This document shows, piece by piece, positions 843-38,194 of a stretch of DNA of 64,000 nt. The DNA comes from Chloroflexi bacterium bin125. Its GTDB lineage: Bacteria; Chloroflexota; Dehalococcoidia; Bin125. The position numbers were made by a program, and so were the translations under genes. The notes below the pieces were generated by a model. That model worked only from the letters and a program-made list of their open reading frames with translations. It ran no database searches and was not told the origin of the DNA. Position 1 is the first letter of the stretch, and the number at the start of each line of letters is the position of its first letter. The stretch spans positions 248,001-312,000 of the forward strand of contig MPNM01000002.1 of NCBI GenBank assembly GCA_002239025.1, written 5' to 3'.

Positions 843-1474
843 CCTTGCCCCGTGTCGAACCCGCCCGGCTCGACAACCTGCGGGAACATCTCGCAACACA
901 GCCTCGCGTGACCATCGAGATCGGTGAGCGGCAGCTCGAATTCATGACCCGGCACGGACTATTTTCCGCCCGAGCGCTCGATGAGGGCACCGCTCTACTG
1001 CTCCGAGAACTCGAGCAGCTTTCGCCGTTGCCACGAATCCTCGACCTTGGTTGCGGTTACGGTGCAATAGGACTGACCCTGGCCGCTCGATGGCCAGAAT
1101 CGAAGATCGAAATGGTCGACACAGACATCCGCGCCGTTGAGGCCGCAAACGACAACGCGGCTCGAAACCGTCTGGACAACGCCACGGCGACGCTCAGCGA
1201 CGGCATTCGCGACCTACCTCGCCAGGCGATCGGAACGTACGAACTCGTAGTCTCCAACCTGCCCGCACAGGCCGGGAACGACGCCCTCGATCAGCTATTG
1301 CTCGAGGCACACGATGCCCTCAGTGACGGCGGCTCGCTAGTCGTCGTCGCAGTCAACGGACTGCGCCGTTACCTGCAACGACGCCTGACACTGATCTTCG
1401 GAGCCGGTCGGGTCGCCAAAGTTCATCAGGGACCGCGACACACAGTACTCGAAGCGGCGAAACTATCCACATGA
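839..1474 (+). CDS. Class I SAM-dependent methyltransferase (small-domain, RsmC-like)
   Basis: A 211-residue protein that starts at GTG 839, overlapping the previous stop. Motif I is DLGCGYGAIGL at residues 69-79 and the acidic end of motif II is VDTD near 93-96. Motif IV is SNLPA at 139-143, a variant of the NPP(F/Y) signature used by N-methyltransferases of RNA or protein. The MTS domain of the RsmC/PrmC group is the best fit, acting on rRNA, tRNA or a release factor; the target cannot be assigned. At about 210 residues it matches single-domain RsmC-like proteins rather than the two-domain E. coli RsmC. It overlaps the MFS gene by 4 bases. Confidence 0.82.
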   Translation: MTLPRVEPARLDNLREHLATQPRVTIEIGERQLEFMTRHGLFSARALDEGTALLLRELEQLSPLPRILDLGCGYGAIGLTLAARWPESKIEMVDTDIRAVEAANDNAARNRLDNATATLSDGIRDLPRQAIGTYELVVSNLPAQAGNDALDQLLLEAHDALSDGGSLVVVAVNGLRRYLQRRLTLIFGAGRVAKVHQGPRHTVLEAAKLST

Positions 1475-2868
1475 GCGCACAGTCGCCACCAACGCGACCC
1501 GGCATGACGGAACCGCTGAGAATACGAGAGTTTCGACTGCTCTTGACCGGCTTCATCGTCGGTCAGTCGATGATGCCGCTGCAGTTCGTCGCGTCAATCG
1601 CCTGGATTCAGTTCGTCGCCGACGACAGCGTCGAGATCATCATGGTCGGCGCAATCGGCACGATTCGCGGCATAGGGATGATCGGCTTCGGTCTGTTCGG
1701 CGGAGCGCTCGCCGACCGTTTCGACCGCCGCCGGCTGCTGATGGTCACTCAGGCGATTGCATTTGTCTCCAACATTCTCATTGCAGTCGTCATGTGGACT
1801 GGTTCAGGCACCTCCACGGACATCATCCTCTTCTTTGCGCTGACCATCATCGCCTCATCGGCCCATGCAATCGACGGACCCACAAGAAACGCAATCACCC
1901 CAGAAATCCTGGGACCGCGACTGACCCCGGCGGGCATCGCTCTGAACTCGGCCGCGATGCAATTCGCCATGCCGATTGCGATCTTCGCCTCCGGCCTGAT
2001 GATCGATCATCTGGGCCACGGAGCGGTGTTCGCCATCTCCTCATTCGGACATTTCGGCGAGGTGATCATCCTCGCGATGATGTCCTATCGAACCGTGTTC
2101 TCCGCTGCGCACATGGCTGCCAGACGCGGTCAAGGCCCTGGACAGGCCATCCGCGACATCGGCGCCGGCCTGCGTTACGCGCGCTCCAAGCCCGTCATCC
2201 TCTGGACCGTGTTCATCGTCGTGATGATGATGTCGCTGATCATGCCGCCCACCGGCACACTCGGGCCGCAGTGGGTCACCACAGTCGTCGGCGCGACCTG
2301 GTCGGAGTTCAGCTACATCGCCGTCTTCTGGGGCGGCGGAGCAATGATCGCCTCACTCTTCCTCGTCCGCTTCTCATGGGTCGAGCGCAAGGGCCTCCTG
2401 ACCGCGCTCGGCGTCATGGTCATGGCCCTCGGGTTCGTGGTCTTCACAAACCCGCCGACCGTCGTCAACGCCATGATGGGCAACCTGCTGCTTGGCGTCG
2501 GCATGTCAATCGCAATGGTTTCGGCCAATGCGACCCTCGCCTACGAGACCCCAAACGAGATGCGTGGCCGGATTATGGGGTTGGTCTTCCTCGGCATGGG
2601 CATCGCCCAGGCTGTCGGCCTGCCGCTCGGCGCCGTCGCCCAGACGCTGACAATGGAGACCCTGTTCCCACCAATGTCCTACGCCGTGATTGCGCTGCTC
2701 GCCGCGATCATCCTTCTCCGCCCGGTCATCCTGCGCGCCCGAGTCCCGCAACACCCACCCGAGTCCTTTGTCGCCTCCGCGCCTGCTACCGCGCGCAAGG
2801 TGCTCAACGGCGCGGCGACGTTCATTGTCCGTACCGCGCCGAACAAGGCCCTCTCGAGCCTGCGATAA
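1471..2868 (+). CDS. MFS transporter (EntS/MFS_3-like)
   Basis: A 465-residue integral membrane protein with about 12 hydrophobic segments. The MFS motif A loop is seen as GGALADRFDRRR around residues 77-88, between the second and third helices. Another conserved loop, NEMRGRIMGL, lies in the C-terminal half and is typical of the enterobactin-exporter-like MFS_3 group. Start ATG 1471 overlaps the methyltransferase stop (ATGA), giving a probable three-gene operon. Likely a proton-coupled exporter of a small molecule; the substrate is unknown. Confidence 0.85.
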   Translation: MSAQSPPTRPGMTEPLRIREFRLLLTGFIVGQSMMPLQFVASIAWIQFVADDSVEIIMVGAIGTIRGIGMIGFGLFGGALADRFDRRRLLMVTQAIAFVSNILIAVVMWTGSGTSTDIILFFALTIIASSAHAIDGPTRNAITPEILGPRLTPAGIALNSAAMQFAMPIAIFASGLMIDHLGHGAVFAISSFGHFGEVIILAMMSYRTVFSAAHMAARRGQGPGQAIRDIGAGLRYARSKPVILWTVFIVVMMMSLIMPPTGTLGPQWVTTVVGATWSEFSYIAVFWGGGAMIASLFLVRFSWVERKGLLTALGVMVMALGFVVFTNPPTVVNAMMGNLLLGVGMSIAMVSANATLAYETPNEMRGRIMGLVFLGMGIAQAVGLPLGAVAQTLTMETLFPPMSYAVIALLAAIILLRPVILRARVPQHPPESFVASAPATARKVLNGAATFIVRTAPNKALSSLR

Positions 2869-2926
2869 CATTCAACCAACTCGAAACCGCTCAGAACCAA
2901 GTATCCCAGCCGAGGGAGTCTCCACC

Positions 2927-4093
2927 ATGGAATATCGATTCAGCGACAAAGCGCTCGACTTCGAAGCCGAAGTCAACGAGTTTCTCGACCAGTCATGGAC
3001 CGCCGAACTCAGGGCGACCATCGGCGATCCGACCACGGACACGATGGACGAGGAACGCGGATTCCGAAAGCTGCTGGCCGAGCGTGGTTGGCTGACGATG
3101 TCCTGGCCGGCCGAGTATGGCGGTCAGGAACGCTCGCTGGAAGAGCAATACCTCTTCTGGGAGGCGATGAACTACGCCGGAGCGCCGCAGGCGACGGTCG
3201 CCACGCAGCAGGTTGGCCCGACGCTGATGCGGTTCGGCACCGACGAGCAGCAGGAACGCTTCCTCCCGCCGATCGCGCGCGGAGAAGTCGAATTCGCCCT
3301 CGGCTACACAGAGCCCGACGCTGGTTCCGACCTCGCCTCGCTGCAGCTACGCGCCATCAAAGATGGCGATGACTACATCCTCAACGGAATCAAGCGCTTC
3401 ACCTCGGGCGCTCACCGCAGCGAGTACGTCTGGCTCGCGACTCGCACCGACCCGGACGCGCCCAAGCACCGTGGCGTCTCGATGATGTTGGTTGACATGA
3501 AGTCTCCCGGCATCACGGTCAAGCCGCTCTGGACGATGGCCGGCTATCGAACCAACGAGGTGTACTTCGAAGATGTGCGCGTCCCGACTAACGTCCTCGT
3601 CGGAGAAGAGAACCGCGGTTGGTACTACGCCGCGCACGCGCTCGACCGCGAACGGATTTCGATTTTCACCGTCTCTTCCGTGCGCGCCGTCTACGACAAC
3701 TTGATGGAATGGGCCAAGTCCGACACACCGATGGGCCGCCCAATCGACGACGCCGGGATCAAGAGGACGATGGCCGAGTTCAAGGTTCAACTCGAAGTCC
3801 TGCAACACCTGAGCTTCCGCATCCTCGACATGCTCAAGCGCGAAGAGTCGCCCAACTACGAGGCCAGCCAGGTCAAGATCTTCTCCACCGAGATGATGCA
3901 GCGACTACAGAACTTCTCATTGCATGCCATGGGACTCTACGGACAACTCAACGGCAACGACCCGAGAGCGCCAATCGACGGCTCCTCCGAAAACGGCTAC
4001 CTCGCCGCAGTCATGCCAACCTTCGGAGCCGGAGGAAACGAACTGCAAAGAAATATCATCGCCCAGCGAGGCTTCGGCTTGCCCCGCGCATAG
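2927..4093 (+). CDS. Acyl-CoA dehydrogenase family protein
   Basis: A FAD-dependent alpha,beta-dehydrogenase of acyl-CoAs, 388 residues from ATG 2927, which is preceded by GAGGGAG at a proper distance; the frame is open further upstream but only through the MFS shadow. The FAD/substrate signature GYTEPDAGSDL is at residues 126-136, and the C-terminus ends in GAGGNELQRNIIAQRG. In medium-chain enzymes the catalytic Glu sits in a Y-E-G-T motif there; here the aligned residue appears to be Ala, so the base must come from elsewhere or a partner subunit, as in several FadE-type families. The substrate is not predictable. Confidence 0.88.
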   Translation: MEYRFSDKALDFEAEVNEFLDQSWTAELRATIGDPTTDTMDEERGFRKLLAERGWLTMSWPAEYGGQERSLEEQYLFWEAMNYAGAPQATVATQQVGPTLMRFGTDEQQERFLPPIARGEVEFALGYTEPDAGSDLASLQLRAIKDGDDYILNGIKRFTSGAHRSEYVWLATRTDPDAPKHRGVSMMLVDMKSPGITVKPLWTMAGYRTNEVYFEDVRVPTNVLVGEENRGWYYAAHALDRERISIFTVSSVRAVYDNLMEWAKSDTPMGRPIDDAGIKRTMAEFKVQLEVLQHLSFRILDMLKREESPNYEASQVKIFSTEMMQRLQNFSLHAMGLYGQLNGNDPRAPIDGSSENGYLAAVMPTFGAGGNELQRNIIAQRGFGLPRA

Positions 4094-19055: not shown

Positions 19056-19868
19056 GTGCGACATCCTCAACTTGACGGACAGTGGGCCTTGATCCTCGGA
19101 GCATCATCGGGATTCGGCGGCACCTGCGCCGTCGCCCTGGCCGAGGCCGGCATGAACATCGCAGGCGTCCACCTAGATCGGCGCTCGACGATGGCCAATG
19201 TCGAGAAAATCGTCAGTCAAATCGAGAGCCACGGCCGGCAAGCATCGTTCCACAACATGAACGCCGCCGACGCTGCCAAGCGAGGCGAAATGCTCGACGG
19301 TCTGCGAGAACAGCTCGATGGTCAGGATGGCCCCAGTTCTGTCCGTGTCCTGTTGCATTCGCTGGCCTTCGGTACGCTCGGTCCATACATCGGCGAGAAA
19401 GAAGATCGGCCCATCTCCCAGCGACAGATGGAAATGACCATGGACGTCATGGCCAATTCCGTCGTCTATTGGACGCAGGAGATGTTTAGTCGAGGCTTAT
19501 TGGGTGAAGGCAGCAAGATCTACGGCATGACTTCCGGCGGAGACATGCGTGTCATCCCGCAGTACGGAGCTGTCTCTGCAGCCAAGGCTGCACTCGCTGC
19601 TCATCTGCGTCAGCTAGCCGTCGAGCTTGCGCCGAGTGGAATCGCAGCCAACGCGATCAAAGCAGGCATCACCCACACGCCCGCACTGGAGAAAATCCCG
19701 GCCGGGATGCAACTGCTCGACTTCGCCCAGAATCACAACCCCTCAGGCCGAGTCACCGAGCCCGAAGACATCGCCCGAGCCATCATCGGCCTCAGCCTCG
19801 ACAACTCCAACTGGGTCACGGGAAACACCATCAACGTCGACGGAGGCGAAGACATCACGGTGCTGTAG
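19056..19868 (+). CDS. FabI/FabL-type enoyl-reductase-like SDR
   Basis: A 270-residue short-chain dehydrogenase that starts at GTG 19056 behind GGGAG. The cofactor site is LGASSGFGG (14-22). Instead of the common YxxxK it has Tyr170 and Lys177 spaced as YxxxxxxK in PQYGAVSAAKAAL, the hallmark of enoyl-ACP reductases FabI/FabL. The first active-site Tyr of FabI is replaced by Ser, as in FabL. The C-terminal VTGNTINVDGGEDITVL is typical. It probably reduces an enoyl thioester (fatty-acid synthesis, or 2,4-dienoyl/enoyl-CoA) with NAD(P)H. Confidence 0.8.
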   Translation: MRHPQLDGQWALILGASSGFGGTCAVALAEAGMNIAGVHLDRRSTMANVEKIVSQIESHGRQASFHNMNAADAAKRGEMLDGLREQLDGQDGPSSVRVLLHSLAFGTLGPYIGEKEDRPISQRQMEMTMDVMANSVVYWTQEMFSRGLLGEGSKIYGMTSGGDMRVIPQYGAVSAAKAALAAHLRQLAVELAPSGIAANAIKAGITHTPALEKIPAGMQLLDFAQNHNPSGRVTEPEDIARAIIGLSLDNSNWVTGNTINVDGGEDITVL

Positions 19869-19905: not shown

Positions 19906-20025
19906 ATGGCTGAGAGCAAACCATCTGCTTCAAAACCTGTTAAGTCGGCATTGCCCAAGAATCCCAAGGTCCCCCCTAACCGCCCGCCGAAGGTGATGGA
20001 TCGCTCTGCGTCGCAGGACAAGTGA
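19906..20025 (+). CDS. Tandem small basic Lys/Pro-rich protein, copy 1 (39 aa)
   Basis: A 39-residue protein starting MAESKPSASKPVKSALPK, then Pro-rich (PPNRPPKV) and ending SASQDK. It is strongly basic and probably disordered. A purine-rich ribosome-binding site (GTAGGGGGAAG) precedes ATG 19906. A near-identical second gene follows 132 bases later. I recognise no family. Coding is supported by the two independent ribosome-binding sites and because the differences between copies keep both frames open. It may bind nucleic acid or ribosomes, which is inference from charge only. Confidence 0.6.
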   Translation: MAESKPSASKPVKSALPKNPKVPPNRPPKVMDRSASQDK

Positions 20026-20037
20026 GGAGAAAGAGCA

Positions 20038-20145
20038 ATGGCTGAGAGCAAACCATCTGCTTCAAAACCCGTTAAGTCGGCATTGCCCAAGAATCCCAAG
20101 ACCCCCCCTGGCCGTCCGCCGAAGGTGTTGGATCGAGGTCTCTAG
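20038..20145 (+). CDS. Tandem small basic Lys/Pro-rich protein, copy 2 (35 aa)
   Basis: A 35-residue near-copy of the preceding gene. The first 21 residues are identical, then KTPPGRPPKVLDRGL replaces KVPPNRPPKVMDRS... It has its own ribosome-binding site (GAGGAGAAAGAGCA before ATG 20038), which overlaps the TGA stop of copy 1. Over the first ~104 bases I count about seven differences, two of them synonymous, which indicates recent duplication with both proteins kept. The 3' end lies 23 bases from a convergent gene. Confidence 0.6.
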   Translation: MAESKPSASKPVKSALPKNPKTPPGRPPKVLDRGL

Positions 20146-20168: not shown

Positions 20169-20744
20169 TCACCACGGCCAGGTGGCAACGATCGCGGCAA
20201 CCGCTGCTATCGACAAGTCGACCATGGTCAGCGCCGTGGCGAAACGCACCCAATTGGCCTTCGACCTGAGAGTCTCCTCATTCTCCGCACATGACTCTTG
20301 GATCTGCGCCGCCGCCCATTGAATCAGGGCTTCGGTGTCGTAGTCGGACGCAAACTCGGTGAAGTCTTTGAGGTCAGGGCCAATCTTCCAGCGCCTAAGC
20401 CGGTAAGCGAAGAACGTGCATACTGCGTTTAGCGCAAACACCACCACCATGGCAGTCAGTAGCGCCCAAAGCTCCACCGAGAGGTCGCCCTCTCGAAACG
20501 TGAATGCTGCAGCAATCAGTGCGATCAGCGCGCCATTGAGAGAGAACGTCGCCGCAAGCTTGCGATCGAGCGCGTCAATCGCGCCAATCTGCATGTCTAG
20601 CTCAGAACGCGCTAGCTCGTAGTAGAACCGGGCGCCACTCCAGTAGTCGCTCGGTTCCGACGCTTCTCCTTCTTCGACCATATCGATGATCCGAACTCGG
20701 CTGAGGCCACCTGTGGAGTGTATCCAATCAGTGCAGTCAGTCAT
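20169..20744 (-). CDS. Small membrane protein, three hydrophobic segments (paralog of 36699-37199)
   Basis: A 191-residue protein: soluble N-terminus, then a Leu-rich helix ALDRKLAATFSLNGAL running into a first membrane segment, a second (LLTAMVVVFALNAVCTFF), a soluble helical region of about 50 residues and a C-terminal membrane segment ending VATWPW. The order and the LDRKL..TFSLN motif match a second gene at 36.7 kb. The topology recalls the transmembrane effectors of the Pycsar/SLATT kind, but no nucleotide cyclase lies nearby. Function is unknown. The start could be ATG 20744 or a Met about 22 codons inside. Confidence 0.65.
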   Translation of the reverse strand: MTDCTDWIHSTGGLSRVRIIDMVEEGEASEPSDYWSGARFYYELARSELDMQIGAIDALDRKLAATFSLNGALIALIAAAFTFREGDLSVELWALLTAMVVVFALNAVCTFFAYRLRRWKIGPDLKDFTEFASDYDTEALIQWAAAQIQESCAENEETLRSKANWVRFATALTMVDLSIAAVAAIVATWPW

Positions 20745-20789: not shown

Positions 20790-21980
20790 ATGAGCGATCC
20801 AATCAGGGGACAAACCGCCATCTGCGGCCTGGGCATCACCGAAATGGGCAAGGTCTACGGACACGACGCCTCCTGGTTTGCCGGAGAGTCGATCAAGCTT
20901 GCCATCCAAGACGCCGGCCTTGAAAAAGACCAGATCGACGGCCTCCTCGTCAATCCTGGCATCACTGGAATGATGGGTACCGGCATCGGCATCCCGCTGC
21001 AGGGCTACCTCGGCCTGCGCAACTTGCGCCTGCTCAACCACATGAATTCCTACGGCGCGACTGCCTCGGCGATGATCCAGTACGCCGCCATGGCCGTCAA
21101 TCACGGCATGGCAAACTACGTCGCCTGCATCTTCGCCGACGCCCCGTTGCAGCAAGGCGGGTCAGCCGGCGCAGCCTACGGTGGAGCCGGCCGACGCGGA
21201 CCATCAGGCATGGCATCACTCATGCCTGCATTCGGCTTCTACGGAGCCAACACGTCCTACGCGCTCGCTGCTCGCCGATACATGGAGCGCTATGGCATCA
21301 CCAATAACGATTTGGGCAGGGTCTCGGTTACTCAGCGCCGCTACGCCGTGGACAACCCCCACGCGACCATGCGCCAGCCGTTGACGCTCGAGGACTACCA
21401 CAACTCCCGCTGGATCGTGGACCCGTTTCACCTGCTCGACTGCTGCCTGGTCTCCAACGGCGCCGTCTGCACGATTGTCACCACAGCCGATCGCGCGCGC
21501 GATCTGCAGTCCGACCCCGCTTACATCTGGGGTATGGGACAAGGCCACCCAGGGAACTTCCCTCATGCCGAGGTCGAGACGGGAACCACCTCCGGCGCCG
21601 TCATCGCCGGCGAAACCGCTTACAAGATGGCCGGCGTAGGTCCCGAAGACGTCGACATCTGCGAGTTCTACGACTGCTACACCTACACCGTCCTGCGCAC
21701 GATCGAGGACTACGGTCTGGCCAAGCCGGGTGAGGCGATTGGTCTCTACCCCGAAGACCCCGCCGATCCCGAAGCCGATCTGCCATTGATCAACACCGGC
21801 GGCGGTCAGCTCTCCTCCTACTACATGTGGGGTATGACGCCGGTCTCGGAAGCCGTAATCCAGGCTCGCGGCTCCGGTGGCGACCGCCAGGTCGAGAAGA
21901 ACGACATCGTGCTCTGCTCGGGCAACGGTGGCACGCTCGATACTCACGGCACCCTCATCCTCTCCCCCAACGCCAACTAG
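20790..21980 (+). CDS. Thiolase-fold lipid-transfer-type protein lacking the catalytic Cys
   Basis: A 396-residue thiolase-superfamily protein (SCP-x thiolase / Ltp-like). ATG 20790 has GAGGAG upstream. Where thiolases carry the nucleophilic Cys, residues 86-95 read NSYGATASAM with no Cys. The C-terminal NxGG loop reads NTGGGQLSSYYMWG without the usual GHP His. Such proteins act as retro-aldolases or scaffolds with a DUF35 partner, and one follows 37 bases downstream. It is therefore unlikely to be a true thiolase. It begins a probable four-gene cluster with DUF35 and two CoA-transferases. Confidence 0.8.
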   Translation: MSDPIRGQTAICGLGITEMGKVYGHDASWFAGESIKLAIQDAGLEKDQIDGLLVNPGITGMMGTGIGIPLQGYLGLRNLRLLNHMNSYGATASAMIQYAAMAVNHGMANYVACIFADAPLQQGGSAGAAYGGAGRRGPSGMASLMPAFGFYGANTSYALAARRYMERYGITNNDLGRVSVTQRRYAVDNPHATMRQPLTLEDYHNSRWIVDPFHLLDCCLVSNGAVCTIVTTADRARDLQSDPAYIWGMGQGHPGNFPHAEVETGTTSGAVIAGETAYKMAGVGPEDVDICEFYDCYTYTVLRTIEDYGLAKPGEAIGLYPEDPADPEADLPLINTGGGQLSSYYMWGMTPVSEAVIQARGSGGDRQVEKNDIVLCSGNGGTLDTHGTLILSPNAN

Positions 21981-34741: not shown

Positions 34742-35515
34742 ATGCAGGTGATTCGAGCGACAGATAAGCAGGTTCGTCGGTTACTGAACACAGCTAGGAA
34801 CGACGACCTGCGGGAGAAGTGGGAGCGGCGCACCGAACCGGCGCTCTTGATTCTCGCTGTCGCGATGATTCCGCTGCTCGTCGGTCACTTCGACCCGAGT
34901 TTGTCGGAATCGGCGCAACGATGGCTCTTTGTCGGCGACACTGCGATTTGGATTGTCTTCGCGGTAGATCTCGCTGTTCGAGTTTGGTTGGCCGAGCACC
35001 GTCGGCGATTTCTCATCAGCCATTGGTATGAAGTCCCAATCGTCGTTATTCCGTTCTTTAGGCCATTGCGAATCCTCTTGCTGCTCAGGCTGGGTGCGGT
35101 ACGAGGAGTGTTCTCAGAGATACTTCGACGCCGTGCAATTTCTGTTTCGTTGTTTGCGTCACTGTTCGCCCTGGCCCTGGCGACGATGATTGTCGTGCTT
35201 GCTGAACGAAGCGGTGACGGACCGATTGATGATTGGGGGACTGCCTTATGGTGGGCTCTTGCGACGATTACCACAGTGGGATACGGAGACGTCACGCCGG
35301 TCACGGCGTTAGGTCGAGCTATCGGAGTGTTGTTGATGGTCGCCGGAATTGGTGTCTTTGGTGTGCTGACTGCCAATGTGGCAGCGTGGTTCGTCGAAGG
35401 GCAACAGGCTCAGGAACCGTCCGACGATTCCCGAATAGATCAACTCGAGAAAGAAAACGAGAGGCTACGAGCTGAGTTGGAGGAGCTGCAGGCTCAGCGA
35501 GGTCAAGATGGGTGA
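34742..35515 (+). CDS. Voltage-gated potassium channel-like protein with intact filter
   Basis: A 257-residue channel subunit with helices S1-S4 (about 35-125), a pore region and a C-terminal coiled coil (QLEKENERLRAELEELQ, about 233-250). The selectivity filter TVGYG is at residues 178-182 in ATITTVGYGDVTP, the classic potassium signature. S4 (RPLRILLLLRLGAVRG, about 107-122) has few Arg, so voltage sensing may be weak. ATG 34742 directly follows the acyl-CoA synthetase stop. The next gene is a paralog. Confidence 0.88.
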   Translation: MQVIRATDKQVRRLLNTARNDDLREKWERRTEPALLILAVAMIPLLVGHFDPSLSESAQRWLFVGDTAIWIVFAVDLAVRVWLAEHRRRFLISHWYEVPIVVIPFFRPLRILLLLRLGAVRGVFSEILRRRAISVSLFASLFALALATMIVVLAERSGDGPIDDWGTALWWALATITTVGYGDVTPVTALGRAIGVLLMVAGIGVFGVLTANVAAWFVEGQQAQEPSDDSRIDQLEKENERLRAELEELQAQRGQDG

Positions 35516-35631: not shown

Positions 35632-36411
35632 ATGGCTGAATCTCTTCGTGGGCCGGGAATCTCGACGGTTAGTCCCCTGTTGGAGTGGTGGAGTGTTCTG
35701 CGAGCGGGACGCTCCGATGATCACTTGGAGCGCTGGGAAGCCCGCACAAATCTTCCACTGTTGATTCTCGCGGGGGTCATGTTGCCGCTGATCTTGCTCC
35801 CGCTGGTCAGCGATCTATCGCATGACGTAGATAGGGCGTTTACCTACGGCGAGTGGGGCATCTGGGCTGTGTTCGCCGTCGATCTCGTCGCCCGACTCTG
35901 GTTGGCGGAAAACCGTAAACAGTTTCTGCGACGCAACTGGATCGATGTCCTGATCGTCGTTGTGCCATTCTTGCGGCCATTGCGGCTGCTCAGGGCGGTC
36001 GTGTTTGTTGCCAGGCTTTGGACGCTTCTCGACCGAAGAGGAGTGCGCGGCACTGTGGTGCTTGCCTTGGCCATTATGTTTGGTGCGACTGCCGCCATCT
36101 GGGCCGCCGAAAGCGGAGCCGGGAGCCAGGTACACAGTTGGGACTCAGCGCTCTGGTGGACGCTACATACCATGGCAACCGGAGACGGCGTCAAGGAAGC
36201 ATCAACTGTGCTCGGCCGAATCGTGGGAGCAATCGTCACCCTGCTCGGCTTCGCCCTGCTCGGAATGCTCACCGCCACCATCGCCGCCTGGTTCGTCGAG
36301 CAGGACCAAGACAAAGAGCAAGAACAAATCCTCGAAGAGCTCAAAGTCCTACAGGACGAGGTCACGGCGCTACGTGAGGAACTCGCAAAGGGCAGGGAGT
36401 CTGGTGACTGA
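35632..36411 (+). CDS. Potassium-channel paralog with degenerate selectivity filter
   Basis: A 259-residue paralog of the preceding channel, matching in the S1-S4 helices (AVDLVARLWLAENRKQFL), in the helix after the pore (GMLTATIAAWFVEQ) and in the C-terminal coiled coil (ILEELKVLQDEVTALREEL). The filter is lost: LWWALATITTVGYGDVTP in the paralog corresponds here to LWWTLHTMATGDGVKEAS (residues 174-191), with one residue missing. It may be a non-conducting or altered-selectivity subunit. AGAGG precedes ATG 35632. Confidence 0.82.
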   Translation: MAESLRGPGISTVSPLLEWWSVLRAGRSDDHLERWEARTNLPLLILAGVMLPLILLPLVSDLSHDVDRAFTYGEWGIWAVFAVDLVARLWLAENRKQFLRRNWIDVLIVVVPFLRPLRLLRAVVFVARLWTLLDRRGVRGTVVLALAIMFGATAAIWAAESGAGSQVHSWDSALWWTLHTMATGDGVKEASTVLGRIVGAIVTLLGFALLGMLTATIAAWFVEQDQDKEQEQILEELKVLQDEVTALREELAKGRESGD

Positions 36412-36435
36412 TACTCTGACACAAGGAGGATCGTG

Positions 36436-36651
36436 ATGACCCAGGCGAGACCATCTCCCGGCCAGCACAAAGACCACGAGGATGCTCTCCCCCCTCCTGG
36501 TCCGGTGTATGTCATCTCCGAGACGGGATTCGGTCCAACTGGACTCTTTGACTCGGAAGAAGCTGTCGACGAGCGCATGAGGCAATGGAGGCTATTGAAC
36601 TGGCTTTCGAAATGCCTCCGACGCGCTTCTTCGAGCAACGGTCAGCAGTGA
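36436..36651 (+). CDS. Small hypothetical protein (71 aa) after the channel pair
   Basis: A 71-residue protein, MTQARPSPGQHKDHED..., with a Pro-rich start, a central PVYVISETGFGPTGLFDSEE and a basic helix at the end (WLSKCLRRASSS). AGGAGG lies 6 bases before ATG 36436, a strong ribosome-binding site; an overlapping GTG 3 bases earlier is too close. It lies 24 bases after the channel paralog and is probably in its operon. No family recognised, no membrane segment. Confidence 0.6.
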   Translation: MTQARPSPGQHKDHEDALPPPGPVYVISETGFGPTGLFDSEEAVDERMRQWRLLNWLSKCLRRASSSNGQQ

Positions 36652-36698
36652 GTAGCCGGCCCATGCAGGAGAAGTGGGTCCGTGTCATGCCTCAACAC

Positions 36699-37199
36699 TC
36701 AGCCGAAATGCAATGTCAGGGCCGACACCGCGGCGACCATCAGCACCGTTAGCGAAGAAGTCGGCATCGCAGTGCCGATCAGTCGACGCTTGTGACCCAG
36801 CCTGCGCTCATTCGTTTCTAGCGCCAACTCGATTTCTCGCCCGTACCACCGCTTGGCGATGGGCAACGAATGGTCATCTTCAATCCTCGAGAGTGCCTGT
36901 AGGCCCGGTCGCCGACTGAGCGGATCGACTCGGTTCGCCCACATCAAGAGAACGATGTTCACCAGCAGCATGAAAATCGTTGCGTGAGCGAAGCCTTCCA
37001 CGTAAGCGGGCAGATTCAAATCGGCAATGCTCAGGGATGCTCCGAGAATCGCGAGTACAGCGAAGTTTAGAGCGAACAGCGTGCTGAGTCGTTGATTCAG
37101 CGCAGCGTGGTGTCGACCCTGATCGTCTCGTCTCCACCGCGCCTCAGCCAGATACAGCGTGACCTCAACATCAGCCAGTTCGTGAGATTCCTCAGCCAT
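36699..37199 (-). CDS. Small membrane protein, three hydrophobic segments (paralog of 20169-20744)
   Basis: A 166-residue protein: a soluble N-terminal helix, then ALNQRLSTLFALNFAVLAILGASLSI (given here in part as LNQRLSTLFALN) leading into a first membrane segment, a second one (ATIFMLLVNIVLLMWANRV), a soluble 50-residue stretch with RRPGLQAL, and a C-terminal membrane segment ending SALTLHFG. Layout and motif match the 20.2-kb gene. The ATG overlaps the htpX stop by one base. Topology recalls SLATT/Pycsar effectors, without any nearby sensor; function unknown. Confidence 0.65.
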   Translation of the reverse strand: MAEESHELADVEVTLYLAEARWRRDDQGRHHAALNQRLSTLFALNFAVLAILGASLSIADLNLPAYVEGFAHATIFMLLVNIVLLMWANRVDPLSRRPGLQALSRIEDDHSLPIAKRWYGREIELALETNERRLGHKRRLIGTAMPTSSLTVLMVAAVSALTLHFG

Positions 37200-38194
37200 T
37201 AGAATGGGCGGCCGATTTCCTCACCAATCTTCCTCAGCCGCTCGACTCGCTGCTCGGTTGGCGGGTGGGTCGAGAACCACCGACCTGCACCACCCGCCAG
37301 CGGATTCACAATGAACATGTGATTCGCCGCCTCGGCGGTTTTCATCTCTTCCGCCGCATAGCGAGACTCCGGCGTTCTCACGCCTTGCTCCAGTTTCAGC
37401 AACCCGTAGGCCAGGGCCTCAGGATCACCGCAGCGACGCGCGCCGGTGTCGTCGGCCTTGAGTTCGCGCTGCCGGCTGACGGCCATCTGGATCATTCCAG
37501 CAATGATTGGCGCAATGATTGCCACGATCAACGCTCCGGCCAGATGTCCCGCTCCTCCGCCGCCCTCGTCATCATTCTGTCCGCCCATGCCGCCGAACAT
37601 GAATCCCATGAACAGCGCAAACTGAGCGATCATCGCAATAAACGAGATCACCATCGCCATCGATGCAACAATCGTCGACCACAGCGTGTCGCGATTCGTC
37701 ACGTGGGCCAACTCGTGCGCCATCACGCCCGACAGCTCACGCTGCGTCAGTAGACCCATGATTCCGGTTGTCGCGGCGACCGCCGAGTGATTGGGATGCC
37801 GTCCGGTTGCGAACGCGTTGGGAATCGGCGTGTCGATCACATACACCGACGGAATATGACGCGGACAGTCGCCGGGGCGGCAGTGGCCCATGCAGCGAGC
37901 CTCGAGATGCTCAAGAGTGAACTGCTCCAGCAAGTCCTTGCGGAACGGCATCTTGGCCTGGCAGGCTGCTCGCTCGACGATTCGGTACAGGTCAGGCGCC
38001 TCCGCGGCCGTGACCAGTTGGCCACCCATCATCTTCGGCACCATCGAGTGCGAGTTGTAGTAGCTGTACAGGTTGATTCCGAAGGCGATCACGGCCATCA
38101 CAATCAGACCAATCTCGCCGGCCACCGCCAACCCCACGACCATTAACAGCCCAGCCATCAGTACCACGAGGAACATCGTGCGCAATCCGTACAC
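37199..38194 (-). CDS. htpX: M48-family membrane metalloprotease, HtpX-like, with Cys-containing insert
   Basis: A 331-residue quality-control protease of the cytoplasmic membrane. Two N-terminal helices (7-43), the zinc motif HELAH (160-164), NAFATGR (126-132), two further membrane segments and the third ligand Glu in RQRELKADDTGA are present, so it should be active. Unusual is an insert of about 28 residues (85-114) between VERAACQAKMP and VYVIDTP, carrying Cys101, Cys105, Cys110 and His104/His113. Other HtpX proteins go directly from MP to VYV. The insert may bind metal or sense redox state. Confidence 0.9.
   Translation of the reverse strand: MYGLRTMFLVVLMAGLLMVVGLAVAGEIGLIVMAVIAFGINLYSYYNSHSMVPKMMGGQLVTAAEAPDLYRIVERAACQAKMPFRKDLLEQFTLEHLEARCMGHCRPGDCPRHIPSVYVIDTPIPNAFATGRHPNHSAVAATTGIMGLLTQRELSGVMAHELAHVTNRDTLWSTIVASMAMVISFIAMIAQFALFMGFMFGGMGGQNDDEGGGGAGHLAGALIVAIIAPIIAGMIQMAVSRQRELKADDTGARRCGDPEALAYGLLKLEQGVRTPESRYAAEEMKTAEAANHMFIVNPLAGGAGRWFSTHPPTEQRVERLRKIGEEIGRPF

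Follow-up and report, generated by a model that had tools for sequence, protein, structure and literature searches.

The locus

The window, by which is meant the whole 64,000-nucleotide stretch of DNA that was analysed, carries two tandem open reading frames for tiny, basic, proline-rich proteins, followed on the opposite strand by a gene for a PycTM-like membrane protein. This module sits in a slot bordered by an SDR gene and a thiolase-like gene (Table 1). The stop codon of the membrane gene is 23 nt from that of the second tiny gene.

Table 1. Features of the slot and of the second module in the window, and the tiny genes of the sister genus.
Feature	Sequence	Position	Strand	Description
SDR gene (enoyl-ACP reductase-like)	window	19056–19868	+	conserved left border of the slot, outside the module
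Tiny gene copy 1 (ORF1)	window	19906–20025	+	ATG; 39 aa, MAESKPSASKPVKSALPKNPKVPPNRPPKVMDRSASQDK; Pro 21%, net charge +6
Tiny gene copy 2 (ORF2)	window	20038–20145	+	ATG; 35 aa, MAESKPSASKPVKSALPKNPKTPPGRPPKVLDRGL; Pro 23%, net charge +6
PycTM-like membrane protein gene, convergent partner	window	20169–20744	-	three hydrophobic helices
Thiolase-like gene	window	20790–21980	+	conserved right border of the slot, outside the module
Second tiny gene, broader kind	window	36433–36651	+	GTG start; 72 aa; LPPPGPVYVISETGFGPTGLF core; convergent with membrane paralog
Second PycTM-like membrane protein gene	window	36699–37199	-	166 aa; start overlaps the stop of the M48 peptidase gene
M48 (HtpX-like) peptidase gene	window	37199–38194		stop overlaps the start of the second membrane gene
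G017 tiny-1	L075	2607–2843	-	78 aa, ...SDLPPPGREVWVRRGL
G017 tiny-2	L075	2269–2382	-	37 aa
G017 tiny-3	L075	2038–2151	-	37 aa

The tandem arrangement is a direct repeat of 98 nt, with 93% identity and a spacing of 132 nt, that begins exactly at both start codons. Each copy is preceded by a sequence resembling a ribosome-binding site, GGGGGA for copy 1 and GAGGAG for copy 2; the latter overlaps the stop codon of copy 1, and copy 2 starts 12 nt past that stop. Residues 1–21 of the two proteins are identical. The C-terminal tail of copy 2, PPGRPPKVLDRGL, is ancestral, with an LDRGL ending as in the ortholog from L042, and that of copy 1 (DRSASQDK) is derived. A sequence-only reading had already described the two ORFs, their lengths, spacing, separate ribosome-binding sites and shared 21-residue head, all of which are present, and its proposal of a recent duplication in which both frames were kept open is supported. 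No signal or leader sequence is visible within the 35–39 residues of the window peptides, and no consensus promoter or terminator was found for the module.

The copies differ at seven positions in 98 nt. Two of the changes are synonymous and five are nonsynonymous, the latter confined to three codons (V/T, N/G, M/L), which gives dN 0.072, dS 0.092 and a dN/dS of about 0.8. Few residues have changed, as had been claimed, but with five of seven changes nonsynonymous this cannot be taken as a sign of purifying selection in the pair, which taken alone would fit weak constraint or none.

Orthologs and empty junctions

A plain single-sequence search with copy 1 against 60 relatives gave a strong match in a single congener (E 2e-5). 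By anchoring on the flanking SDR gene, the slot was found in 13 further congeners. A single tiny ORF occupies it in L038 (MPNSNKKEPKSVKTALPKDRKIPPPGPSVKVERGL), L042 (MAENEKTGSKSDSVKPALPKNPKLPPPGPPNFLDRGL) and L047 (MADSAKAGAKVPKSTIPPKYPKIPPKGRPDFVERG), each paired with a membrane gene between the SDR and thiolase genes. These orthologs share their ending with copy 2; the tail of copy 1 is new. They match the tiny-family profile with E values of 5e-19 to 1e-17, although the profile was built from these same orthologs, and all five strong matches to it among 294 genomes of the class are located at the slot module. Comparison of copy 2 with L042 gives 11, 5 and 24 differences at codon positions 1, 2 and 3, an excess at the third position. 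Given orthologs at the same position in other species, the tiny ORFs are not chance, and those of the window are almost certainly coding genes. That they encode real small proteins, as first proposed, is borne out by these same-slot orthologs and by the low dN/dS of the sister-genus tandem copies and of other tiny subfamilies.

The module is present in five of the 14 congeneric genomes examined and absent from nine, in which the junction is 50–137 nt long, as compared with 782–921 nt with the module. Wherever the module is present, a membrane gene of about 170–190 residues lies tail-to-tail with the tiny gene. Insertion of the module into the slot was considered and dropped; given that a sister genus carries the module at the equivalent place, gain is no more likely than loss. 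In L040, the convergent ORF of the slot has 64 residues, looks unrelated and differs from the other tiny ORFs of the slot. At L040 3810–4601, this longer, different small ORF accompanies a more distant membrane paralog, possibly by replacement of the module. A tree clusters the four slot membrane proteins of the genus, with the L040 protein elsewhere and the sister-genus protein without resolved placement.

The module evolves fast. Among species of the genus that carry the slot, the SDR is 89–97% and the thiolase 93–99% identical; the membrane protein is 27–51% and the tiny protein 20–66% identical. Across 38 kb of synteny with three congeners, the identity of the membrane gene is 47, 46 and 41% versus medians of 78, 76 and 79% for syntenic genes, which places it among the least conserved genes of the region. 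Another gene of the window (34742–35515) is 39–60% identical between congeners, with neighbours at about 90%.

The array in the sister genus

In the sister genus, G017, the slot contains, in order from the SDR gene to the thiolase gene, tiny-1, the 3' remains of a membrane gene and then of the SDR gene, tiny-2, a further membrane-gene 3' fragment, a further SDR fragment, tiny-3 and a full membrane gene; visual inspection of the sequence identified the fragments. This array of tiny ORFs with membrane and SDR fragments points to repeated duplication or replacement of the module. The tiny ORFs have stayed open while membrane genes were reduced to fragments. Tiny-2 and tiny-3 differ at six nucleotides, five of them synonymous, with dN 0.012 and dS 0.222 (dN/dS about 0.05); the chance of at least five synonymous changes in six is about 0.005. 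The array was duplicated separately from the pair in the window. Selection on the window pair, as first proposed, is not borne out by its dN/dS of about 0.8.

In L099 and L086, the membrane gene is interrupted and a tiny ORF is still nearby. On the minus strand of L099 (G017:C5), at 2068–2313, one chain holds the core twice, as PPPGPENLVLG and PPPGPENAVIKG; the membrane gene beside this double-core ORF has an in-frame stop. Tiny ORFs that outlive cut-down membrane genes form, by analogy, the kind of pattern left where immunity or antitoxin genes are kept.

The membrane protein

The membrane protein has 191 residues if translation starts at the ATG at 20744, or 170 from the ATG at 20681, which homologs favour. 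A structure model with a mean pLDDT of 76 predicts a long helix at 33–82, a helix at 90–115 and a long helix at 137–188. A basic segment, RLRRWK, follows the second helix, and by the positive-inside rule the helix before TM1 and the TM2–TM3 region probably face the cytosol.

PycTM is the membrane effector of the Pycsar anti-phage systems. A PADLOC PycTM profile, which has no curated cut-off, matches residues 43–185 of the window protein at E 6.7e-5; among 28 diverse family members, 16 match PADLOC PycTM profiles with E below 0.01 (best 3.5e-8), and 10 match one PADLOC 2TM effector profile, also below 0.01. With the window protein, the Pfam PycTM family (PF18967) gives no match at E<=1, and there is none in G000 or its congeners, and no SLATT Pfam family is among those listed for the 28 members at E<=0.1. 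As a contrast, a true Pfam PycTM protein of the same class occurs at L161 (G036) 1345–3180; its convergent neighbour is a large ORF (413 aa), and no tiny gene is visible there. No pyrimidine cyclase was found beside the membrane gene, the neighbours of which encode the SDR, the thiolase and an M20 peptidase, and the slot, where the neighbours are metabolic, holds neither a nucleotidyltransferase nor any other gene of a CBASS system.

A search of PDB sequences with the membrane family gave only chance-level matches, and Foldseek with the model found none in PDB or BFVD at E<=0.001. A structural match to NINJ1 (VIA-align Z 11.9, rmsd 3.0 over 105 residues, 17% identity) was not used, because helical models reach such Z scores by chance. 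Weak Pfam matches to MgtE, holins and 8xMP were below cut-off or inconsistent.

The wider family

The membrane-protein profile finds relatives in 29 of 294 genomes of the class, with five relatives in the window's own genome, and a broader profile finds more. One of these relatives belongs to the second module of the window (Table 1), which together with an ion-channel-like gene (PF00520) and the M48 peptidase gene spans 35632–38194. Beside many of the relatives, a short convergent ORF ends within tens of bases of the membrane-gene stop or overlaps it; in many members, the 3' ends are 7–54 nt apart or share up to 76 nt. In more distant Chloroflexota (L092, L146, L150, L154), the two genes often have the same orientation, with the tiny proline-rich ORF downstream.

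The slot proteins share a P-P-x-G-P-x-x-hydrophobic-x-x-R-G-L core, and paralog groups have LPPPGP...G(F/L) or RPLP...(K/R)xG(A/L). Three cores recur: LPPPGPxxxxSxxGxGPxGxF in L118 (the second tiny gene of the window), L122 and L126; LPxG..DIIYxGGFPPFW in L117, L124 and L120; and RPLPxTxxKxGA, at the C-terminus, in L127, L129, L130, L121, L095 and L119. Tiny subfamilies other than that of the slot have a dN/dS of about 0.1–0.3. Within that range, a 57-residue ORF conserved across four species (L123, L125, L077 and L079) has a 31-nt antisense overlap with its convergent membrane gene. Alignment of the subfamilies by hhalign gives weak links, with probabilities under 7%, and common descent is not claimed, given that these links are unconvincing. 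Some tiny partners are non-basic or barely proline-rich, and family members L076 and L168 are without a clear tiny ORF.

Of 66 family members other than those of the slot where the module was discovered, 22 have a PxPP-type tiny ORF at their 3' end, versus 17 of 224 control genes (p 8e-7); four true partners were still among the controls. A core motif chosen post hoc occurs in the convergent frame in 17 of 34 versus 17 of 191 (p 9e-8), and a stricter test of proline content runs in the same direction (17/72 versus 8/183, p 1.5e-5). These p-values overstate independence, because the members are related to each other. The sequence-only reading had suggested a family of such peptides; the family is real, although it makes sense only together with the convergent membrane gene, to which that reading did not connect it.

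The tiny proteins match nothing in Pfam, NCBIfam or PDB sequences, including any known antitoxin domain. No copies were found by tblastn of plasmids and phages, and a scan of IMG/VR found no relative. A literature search found no account in which a PycTM-like protein is paired with a tiny proline-rich one, which is weak evidence of absence.

Interpretation

The pairing of tiny and membrane genes is seen again in related bacteria and appears to be a module of two parts, hitherto undescribed, the small half of which has been duplicated and kept. The tiny gene very probably works with its convergent membrane protein. The reading preferred here, with a probability of about 0.4, is of a two-gene module in which a PycTM-like membrane effector is bound and held in check by the tiny peptide. 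The soluble, basic, proline-rich peptide would bind the cytosolic helices of the membrane protein and keep it inactive; once the peptide is lost, or a trigger displaces it, the membrane protein would be free to damage the membrane. The module evolves very fast, has disappeared cleanly from many species and is duplicated, with extra tiny genes outliving truncated membrane-gene copies in the manner of immunity or antitoxin genes. If the link between the two genes is granted, the chances that the peptide restrains its partner are about even. Restraint is preferred over activation mainly because tiny ORFs persist beside truncated or interrupted membrane genes; the convergent order, which is unusual for toxin-antitoxin pairs, counts against it. 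A role in phage defence or conflict is conceivable, at somewhat less than even odds, and several membrane paralogs adjoin metabolic rather than defence genes.

Alternatively, the membrane protein could be a channel or sensor that requires the tiny protein as a small subunit or assembly factor, or is activated rather than inhibited by it, with duplication raising the dose or providing alternative subunits. This is a tentative but serious alternative, given that many small bacterial proteins bind membrane proteins, that both the pairing and a short core are conserved, and that the L099 ORF repeats its PPPGPEN(L/A)V core, as a binding motif would. The intact tiny ORFs beside broken membrane genes in G017, L099 and L086 fit an immunity-like gene better. 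A separate question, which concerns the window pair only and fits with any of the other readings, is whether its second copy is a recent neutral duplication without gain from two genes. The window-copy dN/dS and the altered tail of copy 1 would allow for this, but the sister genus duplicated and retained its tiny genes independently, with almost only synonymous drift, and neutrality is on the unlikely side.

Release of the tiny protein as a proline-rich antimicrobial or signal peptide, with the membrane protein as its immunity protein or receptor, is improbable: the cationic, proline-rich composition, with PRP/RPLP stretches that resemble insect proline-rich antimicrobial peptides in composition only, and the fast evolution and duplication would suit competition, but neither a signal nor a leader is visible, the slot holds no gene for an exporter, and several tiny partners are not cationic. 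Least probable is that the element acts as RNA, with pairing of convergent transcripts regulating the membrane gene and the ORFs incidental or lightly used; close or overlapping 3' ends would suit this, but synonymous-biased changes, frame-specific protein conservation in several groups and the third-position excess among slot orthologs argue against it.

Extended to its full form, the restraint reading would describe a widespread and undescribed conflict or defence system of Chloroflexota, in which a PycTM-like effector without a nucleotide signal is controlled by a tail-to-tail proline-rich peptide of 35–75 residues, and surplus peptide genes serve as immunity against related modules; as a whole, this is rather doubtful. 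A PycTM-like branch that travels with a tiny peptide gene would suggest that membrane effectors can be controlled in another way, and that gene callers routinely miss a family of peptides shorter than about 75 residues.

Comparison with known systems

Proline-rich antimicrobial peptides are typically short, basic and rich in proline, as are the tiny proteins, but the latter are without visible leader or processing and are partnered by a PycTM-related membrane protein. The 2TM effectors of the CBASS/SLATT type share the 2TM profile match with part of the family; the module differs in having neither a SLATT Pfam match nor a CBASS gene in the slot.

The known PycTM-like effectors are triggered by cyclic nucleotides. 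The window protein shares with PycTM a length of about 160–190 aa, two hydrophobic helices early in the chain and repeated weak profile matches. It differs in that its model has an additional hydrophobic helix, the third, near the C-terminus, and also by the tiny convergent gene, the absent cyclase and the lack of a PF18967 match. Because both the Pfam match and the cyclase are absent, the module is not filed as Pycsar.

With type II toxin-antitoxin and toxin-immunity loci, the module has in common an adjacent pair of small genes, one of them tiny, that is patchy in distribution and fast-evolving. Convergent order holds for the window and for most of its own family; only distant members, such as L092, have the two genes co-directional. 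Given that order, and a toxicity that is putative, the module is not filed as a type II toxin-antitoxin operon. Surplus small genes are known from orphan immunity arrays, and toxin-immunity loci share with the module surplus small-gene copies beside truncated copies of the large gene. If the peptide does restrain its partner, the module would resemble a toxin-antitoxin or effector-inhibitor pair.
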